A stretch of DNA of 64,000 nucleotides from contig NZ_SJDM01000006.1 of NCBI RefSeq assembly GCF_004761865.1, positions 1-64,000 on the forward strand, read 5' to 3'. Each line of letters starts with the position of its first letter. Within the stretch, counting starts at the first letter, position 1. Below, in pieces: positions 63,102 through 64,000 of this stretch. The position numbers and the translations under genes are program-made. The notes below the pieces were generated by a model that worked only from the letters and a program-made list of their open reading frames with translations, had not been told where the DNA came from and ran no database searches. The DNA is from Crenalkalicoccus roseus. GTDB lineage: Bacteria; Pseudomonadota; Alphaproteobacteria; Acetobacterales; Acetobacteraceae.

Positions 63102-63569
63102 TCAGCCGCCGAGCGCCTCCTTCACCAGCGGCCCCGCCCGGGAGAGGTCCATGCTCGCCGCGTGCCTGGCCCGCAGCAGGGCCATCACCTTGCCCATCTC
63201 CTTCACCCCGCTCGCCCCGGATTCGGCGATCGCGGCGCGGATCGCCTCCCGCATCGCCGCCTCGTCCATCTGCCGCGGCAGGAAGGATTCGATGACGCGG
63301 ATCTCCGCCTCCTCCTTCTCCGCGAGTTCGGGGCGGTTGCCCTGGCGGTAGAGCTCGGCGCTCTCCCGCCGCGACTTCACCATGCCCCGCAGCATGGTGG
63401 CGATCTGCTCGTCCGGCACCCTTTCCACGCCCGAGGGGCGGGCGGCGATGTCGGTCTCCTTCAGCTTCGCCATGATCATGCGGATGGTGGAGGTGCGGGC
63501 GGCATCGCCCGCCTTCATCGCCGCCTTCATCTCCTCGCTGAGGCGGCTGCGCAGGTCCTCGGCCATCAT
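63102..63569 (-). CDS. GatB/YqeY-domain protein
   Basis: 155 aa from ATG 63569 (AAGGAG at 5 nt). MAEDLRSRLSEEMKAAMKAGDA, RTSTIRMIMAKLKETDIAARP and SFLPRQMDEAAMREAIRAAI match YqeY, which resembles the tRNA-binding tail of GatB; function unsettled. A good -10 (TATAGA, minus strand, 63596-63591) lies 21 bp upstream with no clear -35. The divergent gene is carA, the common alphaproteobacterial arrangement. Confidence 0.93.
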   Translation of the reverse strand: MMAEDLRSRLSEEMKAAMKAGDAARTSTIRMIMAKLKETDIAARPSGVERVPDEQIATMLRGMVKSRRESAELYRQGNRPELAEKEEAEIRVIESFLPRQMDEAAMREAIRAAIAESGASGVKEMGKVMALLRARHAASMDLSRAGPLVKEALGG

Positions 63570-63630
63570 GCGGTCTCCTTCCTGCCCTTCTCTATAGGGC
63601 GCCCCCGTGGGCGGCGCACGGGGCCGCGGA

Positions 63631-63647
63631 CGGGAAACGCTTTCCGG
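63631..63647. promoter_or_regulatory. Second, imperfect copy of the carA palindrome
   Basis: CGGGAAACGCTTTCCGG has the same 17-bp layout (GGGAAA-N3-TTTCC) as the palindrome at 63668-63684, with centres 37 bp apart. It lies between the divergent carA and yqeY and could be an auxiliary operator. Confidence 0.5.
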
Positions 63648-63661
63648 ACCCATCAGGCGGC

Positions 63662-63690
63662 TTGTATTGGGAAATATTTTCCCACATAGT
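63662..63690 (+). promoter_or_regulatory. carA promoter with a 17-bp palindromic operator as spacer
   Basis: TTGTAT (63662-63667) and CATAGT (63685-63690) are separated by exactly 17 bp, and the spacer is the perfect palindrome TGGGAAATATTTTCCCA (63668-63684). The predicted transcript start (about 7 nt after the -10) coincides with the ATG at 63697, which suggests a leaderless mRNA; no Shine-Dalgarno sequence is present at a workable distance. Confidence 0.65.
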
Positions 63691-63696
63691 GGGGCC

Positions 63697-64000
63697 ATGC
63701 GGACGGTCGAGGACATCATCGCCCTGCTCGGCGGCCCGGAGGCCGCGGCGCAGCGCTGCGGCATCGGCACCGAGGCGGTGCGCAAATGGCGCCAGGCCCG
63801 CGCCATCCCGCCGAGGCACTGGCCGGCGATCCTCGCCGCCACCGGCCTCTCCCTCTCCGACCTTCCCGGCGCCCCCGTTGCGGAGACCCCTGCCCCCATG
63901 GCCCATCCGGACAGCCCCCCCGACGGCACGGCCCCCACCCGCGCACCCGACGGCGCGACCGCCTGCCTCGTGCTCGGCGACGGCACGGTGCTCTGGGGGG
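63697..64000 (+). CDS. carA: Carbamoyl-phosphate synthase small subunit with an N-terminal helix-turn-helix domain (runs off the window)
   Basis: 101 codons visible. Residues 1-57 (MRTVEDIIALLGG, EAAAQRCGIGTEAVRKWRQA, IPPRHWPAILAATGLSLSDL) read as a Cro/YdaS-like helix-turn-helix: two helices, then AVRKWRQARAIP as the recognition region. A Pro/Ala-rich linker follows (about 58-84), then GATACLVLGDGTVLWG from residue 85, the start of the CarA fold (CarA proteins begin with xLVLxDGTxFxG). CarA is the glutaminase subunit for arginine and pyrimidine synthesis. Identity rests on this short segment plus the conserved neighbourhood (divergent yqeY-dnaG-rpoD). Confidence 0.85.
   Translation, partial: MRTVEDIIALLGGPEAAAQRCGIGTEAVRKWRQARAIPPRHWPAILAATGLSLSDLPGAPVAETPAPMAHPDSPPDGTAPTRAPDGATACLVLGDGTVLWG

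Follow-up and report, generated by a model that had tools for sequence, protein, structure and literature searches.

The gene that begins at position 63697 of the stretch of Crenalkalicoccus roseus DNA analysed here (the window, 64,000 nucleotides) encodes CarA, the small subunit of carbamoyl-phosphate synthase (CPSase), with a Cro-like helix-turn-helix (HTH) domain at its N-terminus, and the conserved sequences at its promoter make it quite probable that this HTH-CarA is a fused enzyme–repressor of its own gene. From the ATG at 63697 the reading frame stays open up to the window's end; when the gene was completed from the adjoining sequence, the frame did not stop before CarA but ran to contig position 65091, giving a product of 464 residues with a Cro-type HTH, a Pro/Ala linker and a complete CarA. 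The first-pass annotation had taken the first 57 residues for a Cro/YdaS-type HTH joined by such a linker to CarA, a reading that the 464-residue frame and its matches to NF046037 and TIGR01368 confirm. The features referred to below are as follows.

63102-63569, minus strand: divergent neighbour gene for a presumed YqeY-type protein; judged not to own the operators
63631-63647, unstranded: candidate distal operator CGGGAAACGCTTTCCGG, lying 37 bp further upstream than the proximal one; palindrome, conserved in relatives
63662-63667, plus strand: putative -35 hexamer TTGTAT, abutting the proximal operator on its upstream side, from comparison
63668-63684, unstranded: candidate proximal operator TGGGAAATATTTTCCCA; palindrome, conserved in relatives
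63685-63690, plus strand: putative -10 hexamer CATAGT, abutting the proximal operator on its downstream side, from comparison
63697-63867, plus strand: N-terminal Cro-like HTH, residues 1-57 (NF046037, AlphaFold2, Foldseek)
63769-63798, plus strand: predicted recognition helix, residues 25-34 (AlphaFold2 model)
63868-63960, plus strand: Pro/Ala-rich linker, residues 58-88 (translation, low model confidence)
63882-63885, plus strand: possible internal Shine-Dalgarno sequence GGAG, a conserved kind of signal
63898-63900, plus strand: ATG of residue 68, a possible internal start but weak here, with a gap of 12 nt after GGAG
63961-64000, plus strand: start of the CarA domain, residue 89 onward (TIGR01368); the gene ends outside the window, at 65091

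Residues 4-56 match the NCBIfam model NF046037 ("carph-isopro") with an E-value of 2.2e-20 and 72.6 bits, above the cut-off of 38, and residues 89-460 match TIGR01368 (CarA, the glutamine-hydrolysing CPSase small subunit) with 462.8 bits against a cut-off of 307.35, covering positions 1-361 of that 361-position profile. The Pfam family P22_Cro (PF14549), whose fold is similar, scores 26.3 bits (E 6.4e-6), below its curated cut-off of 30.2; YdaS toxin (PF15943) was ruled out as a label for the HTH, at 23.8 bits against a cut-off of 30 (E 3.9e-5). AlphaFold2 predicts a four-helix HTH for residues 1-67 (helices 4-11, 14-21, 25-34 and 39-49; mean pLDDT 82.2) with a disordered end from residue 59 and low confidence at 59-67, and in the full-length model of one relative a low-confidence stretch, residues 59-69, connects the HTH with CarA. 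When Foldseek was run with the HTH model, N15 Cro ranked first (E 0.018) and the Cro proteins of Xfaso 1 and P22 were in the first ten; no structural match reached an E-value of 0.001 or better, and 6on0, 2hin and 3bd1 each gave a probability of 1.00 and a TM-score of about 0.6, which places the model within the Cro-like fold. A sequence profile made from the HTHs of 21 relatives matches Xfaso 1 Cro, its hybrid and N15 Cro with E-values of 2e-4 to 8e-4, and P22 Cro with one of only 0.11. Structure prediction and profile search, both proposed earlier for the N-terminus, thus return an HTH whose best structural matches are the N15 and Xfaso 1 Cro proteins. The 4.43-Mb genome contains one PF00988 match, one NF046037 match above the cut-off and a weak HTH paralogue (43% over 35 residues, E 3.4e-4). 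On the window's contig, two further genes, presumably SDR-like and LysE-like, lie between carA and carB (L002:2598-4281), so that the CPSase subunits need not be made together.

In the genomes sampled, the fusion is a lineage trait of the Acetobacterales, a name that we use because NCBI places the nearest named relative, Siccirubricoccus soli (80% identity), in the Acetobacterales, Roseomonadaceae. It is present in 129 of the 132 Acetobacterales loci examined (3 found first, 29 from the family genome search and 100 fetched afterwards). The exceptions are L130, which runs off its contig; L164, a second HTH protein in the genome that carries the fused L165; and L167, where the frame stops after the HTH. 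We analysed 128 fused loci further, L165 having been lost at a motif filter. In L070 and L167 the frame ends shortly past the HTH or in an early part of CarA, by frameshift, assembly error or a real separation of the domains. Of 200 genomes from the window's family, 191 match NF046037 (189 above the cut-off), an order-level sample, in which the order amounts to the window's family only, has the HTH in 148 of 150 genomes, and the domain persists almost throughout a lineage of some 100 genera. From 80 named loci we looked at 33, 20 with the HTH and 13 without; among the 20, 18 bear the titles of acetic acid bacteria or their kin, one of Acidobacteria and one of Proteobacteria (with the exception of Siccirubricoccus, the 18 were assigned by what we take to be the standing of their genera). 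The CarA proteins of 29 other alphaproteobacterial families include none with the HTH in frame (0/29). In a class-wide sample NF046037 is found in 57 of 190 genomes, and the 30 such loci that were read show the CarA fusion only in the 3 from the window's family; for 20 weaker class-wide matches, a narrow HTH model recovered 5, with CarA in frame in none of these 5, and tblastn gave no match to the HTH on plasmids. The "some alphaproteobacteria" in which the annotation placed such domains before CarA come down, in the genomes sampled, to one lineage, the Acetobacterales.

Both carA promoter palindromes are of the type TGGGAAAnnnTTTCCCA, and they are conserved as a pair. The proximal palindrome is the sole match in the window at two or fewer mismatches, with any match in 0 of 100 shuffles, and the window's distal copy is imperfect (3 mismatches in 14 positions). 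In the whole genome, GGGAAAnnnTTTCCC with at most one mismatch occurs only at these two palindromes, and a search for a wider regulon found no further operator site in this genome at two or fewer mismatches. At three mismatches there are 14 genomic places, the distal operator among them, against 8 for the reversed pattern, and a wider regulon was rejected. Among relatives, the best palindrome in the 220 bp upstream departs from the pattern at no more than 2 of 14 positions in 79 of 92 loci, as compared with 0 of 1840 mononucleotide shuffles. Two sites at four or fewer mismatches are present in 79 of 92 loci, spaced 36-41 bp apart in 68, 43-44 bp in 4 and 48-50 bp in 7. The exact sequence TGGGAAn5TTCCCA was found 54 times in 41 of 60 genomes (the other 19 have no exact site), the reversed pattern 6 times. 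Of these sites, 49 lie upstream of the HTH (37 by family HTH positions, 7 in six checked loci and 5 by order-sample positions), and the 5 elsewhere are about as many as the reversed-pattern control gives. Upstream of the HTH-less CarA of the 29 other families, no site better than 4 mismatches was found within 500 bp.

Natural losses of the domain within the family show the same association. CarA was searched for in 11 family genomes, namely the 10 without an HTH match plus G303 (with a weaker NF046037 match, E 7.9e-13): it was not found in 5, was cut by contig ends in 3 (G214, G364, G332) and was whole in 3 (G400, G217, G303), all of them without the HTH. Nor was an HTH found elsewhere in these three loci, which extend 1.5 kb beyond the CarA match on either side, and the best sites in the 450 bp upstream of their carA genes have 4, 5 and 5 mismatches. 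We count two losses, since the genus mates of G400 (L061, L186 and L192) retain the fusion and G217 and G303 belong to one genus. In all three genomes the HTH-less CarA starts at an ATG behind AGGA or GGAG; that of G400 begins MPDIQQPDGATAAL, and the fused L061 of the same genus has its linker ATG there, MPDARPDGATAAL. The single NF046037 match in the G303 genome could be a free HTH protein. Because the conserved palindromes share both presence and absence with the HTH, the earlier suggestion that the enzyme is its own DNA-binding regulator, with the region 63631-63690 as its target, finds good support in the two conserved palindromes there, as far as sequence can give it.

The position of the operators fits a repressor of carA. 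In the commonest promoter type (88 of 128 loci) the near operator starts 28-32 bp before the ATG, and TTG stands exactly six bases before this operator in 79 of the 88, as against 1.7% in shuffles. Of the bases that follow the operator in these 79 TTG loci, the second is A in 74 and the first is T in 54, and the ATG follows 12-15 bases on. From this arrangement we infer a promoter with TTGnnn as its -35 element, the 17-bp operator as its spacer and a -10 element, whose transcript would start at the ATG of the HTH and so be leaderless. A generic promoter and terminator scan of 63480-63780 found nothing and does not call the promoter, so the claim for a carA promoter rests on comparison. For the other 40 of the 128 loci, the operator lies further upstream and the main ATG has a Shine-Dalgarno sequence; the median pairing energy at the main ATG is -6.2 kcal/mol in these 40 and -0.4 in the commonest type (p 5.5e-11). 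Leaderless mRNA exists in the lineage, with 62 leaderless transcripts (5%) reported for Gluconobacter oxydans (PMC5756330).

A second start appears to lie in the linker. An ATG is found between the HTH and CarA, or in the first codons of CarA, in 88 of 128 genes; 20 have only GTG or TTG in the linker region and 20 have none of the three. A Shine-Dalgarno 4-mer at a gap of 4-9 nt precedes 55 of 107 linker ATGs and 6 of 468 in-frame ATGs in the body of CarA, and with a gap of 4-12 nt it precedes a linker start in 61 of the 128 genes. Pairing with the anti-Shine-Dalgarno sequence is stronger at the 107 linker ATGs than at the 468 CarA-body ATGs (p 4e-19) and stronger than after synonymous reshuffling (p 4e-11), and strongly paired linker ATGs are found in 53 of 88 genes of the leaderless class versus 13 of 40 of the other class (p 0.004); all these p values overstate the case, because related genes are not independent. 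Many relatives thus probably make a second product, a plain CarA from the linker ATG, and the idea of two forms appears well supported for the lineage and less so for the window's genome. The annotation's other thought, that the domain might be made separately, is upheld in part, in that an internal start would yield CarA without the HTH.

The predicted recognition helix offers a hint, from covariation, as to what reads the operators. Its residues A27, R29, K30, W31 and R32 do not vary among 21 relatives, and residue 33 varies with the half-sites: these are mainly NCGG in 7 of the 8 genes with S or A for Q33 (the exception being L153), in 2 of 115 genes with Q33 (L062 and L066; 7 ties), in 1 of 2 with H and in none of 3 with T (1 tie). 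The residue two beyond shows less covariation with the operator. Among named loci with NCGG-type operators, Acidocella (KWRAAG) agrees and L216, which keeps Q, does not. On a tree of 125 of the 128 genes, from which short rows were removed, there are three supported independent pairs, averaging 1.6 in agreement, none in conflict and 1.3 with no difference; we keep the covariation as a hint, not significant on the tree, because three independent pairs are too few for a test. Eight loci (L056, L057, L116, L138, L146, L154, L063 and L213) combine S or A for Q33 with operators that are mainly CCGGAAA/TTTCCGG, and a specificity switch is possible in the loci with S or A at residue 33.

Taken with the fusion itself, the paired palindromes, the promoter geometry, the joint absence of HTH and palindromes and the internal-start signals suggest how such a repressor would work. 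The long product, HTH-CarA, would be translated from an mRNA that starts at the ATG of the HTH, and its Cro-like domain would bind the two 17-bp palindromes on the carA promoter, covering the spacer between -35 and -10 and keeping RNA polymerase off. CPSase of E. coli forms a tetramer, and the four half-sites would suit its four small subunits, so repression would rise with the amount of enzyme or with its ligand state. Where relatives have the internal Shine-Dalgarno sequence and ATG, CarA without the HTH would also be made, and the repressor form would stay a fraction of the total. A fuller version, which we offer tentatively and would not yet call probable, has two forms of CarA, a leaderless HTH-CarA that sits within CPSase on both operators and a plain enzyme from the internal start, and treats the domain as a general plug-in. 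The holoenzyme itself, carrying up to four HTHs, would then convert the state of its assembly or of its effectors into transcription of carA, with the plain enzyme setting the dose of repressor.

We weighed three other readings against self-repression. The palindromes might be bound by a separate regulator, with the fused HTH having another target or only helping assembly; the genome does have other HTH proteins (weak paralogues), Cro-type domains also act as separate proteins, and the covariation between residue 33 and operator is not proven. We nevertheless consider this unlikely, given that the sites occur almost only at carA and that lack of the HTH goes with lack of the palindromes, in other families and in HTH-less members of the lineage alike. 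Still less probable, in our judgement, is a main role for HTH-CarA other than repressing carA, whether in activation or in repression of the divergent gene. The distal operator is 62 bp from the first codon of the divergent gene in the window, but the near operator occupies the spacer within the carA promoter, the place of a repressor, and both operators keep their place at carA in the 9 of 32 loci where the neighbour is distant (600-1127 bp away in L049, L055, L062 and L064) or was not found in the DNA at hand (5 loci). Ownership of the operators by the divergent gene was ruled out on this ground.

The last reading, which would make the fusion a neutral relic or an artefact of annotation and CarA from the internal start the only real product, we find hardly credible. 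It could appeal to the main ATG, which lacks a Shine-Dalgarno sequence in the common promoter type, and to the internal ATG, which often has one; yet the HTH persists across those many genera with invariant core residues and conserved operators, and identity at the first, second and third codon positions of the HTH is 0.71, 0.82 and 0.48 (1500 random pairs).

If it represses its own gene, HTH-CarA would be a trigger enzyme of a new make. An enzyme and a DNA-binding domain are combined in one protein, and a conserved palindrome pair lies at its own promoter. BirA, NadR and PutA of E. coli likewise join a metabolic enzyme to a DNA-binding domain and, as we think of HTH-CarA, are thought to control genes of their own pathway; CarA is absent from the five E. 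coli trigger-enzyme cases listed there (PMC8249747, PMC6978683). HTH-CarA would differ from the E. coli cases in its Cro-like HTH, in an operator that serves as promoter spacer and in a possible HTH-less form from an internal start. The E. coli carAB promoter P1 is controlled by PepA, which wraps about 230 bp, and PyrH (PMC6245113). There too, enzymes take on a second role in controlling the genes of carbamoyl-phosphate synthase, but PepA and PyrH are other enzymes acting in trans, whereas here CarA itself carries a canonical HTH. The phage Cro proteins of N15, Xfaso 1 and P22 resemble the domain in HTH fold and sequence, and paired promoter operators are a further likeness that we propose here; unlike them, HTH-CarA is cellular, fused to an enzyme and without a lytic or lysogenic role. 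The HTH is a clear member of NF046037, and that model, already at NCBI, names the domain; the operators and starts are new here. In the open-access literature we found no paper on the HTH-CarA fusion, on its domain (under the name carph-isopro included) or on its control.

Carbamoyl phosphate feeds arginine and pyrimidines, so that, if the proposal is right, a whole lineage, vinegar and cellulose producers among its members, sets its supply of it through an enzyme that represses its own gene. With an operator as spacer, a leaderless start for the repressor and an internal start for the enzyme, enzyme-level sensing would be testable in one gene.

The same HTH domain recurs on other enzymes, which is our reason for suggesting that it may be a general plug-in for enzyme autoregulation in the Alphaproteobacteria; such recurrence would reveal a hidden class of autoregulated enzymes. 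In another alphaproteobacterial family it stands in frame before Nnr (NAD(P)H-hydrate epimerase/dehydratase; L030), where it is preceded by the palindrome TTGTACGTAtttTACGTACAA, with 0 of 200 shuffles as good. The HTH was found in 9 of 11 genomes of that family, and by eye a similar motif lies upstream in all nine, in L342 only in a distant form; for L030 and L337-L345 the palindrome before the gene is of the TGTACGTnnnACGTACA type. It is also in frame before a phosphoglycerate dehydrogenase (L040:1489-3156), a zinc alcohol dehydrogenase (L034:1486-3069) and a histidyl-tRNA-synthetase-like protein (L085:450-1943). Before these three fusions no palindrome stood out beyond shuffles, in a test that is weak, as in the window it puts a different, GC-rich repeat at the top, with 3 of 200 shuffles scoring as well. 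In several alphaproteobacterial families, mitofilin-like membrane proteins begin with a close variant of the HTH (FGGIRPMA...TVQGWK; L016, L022 and similar loci), an odd site for a DNA-binding domain.
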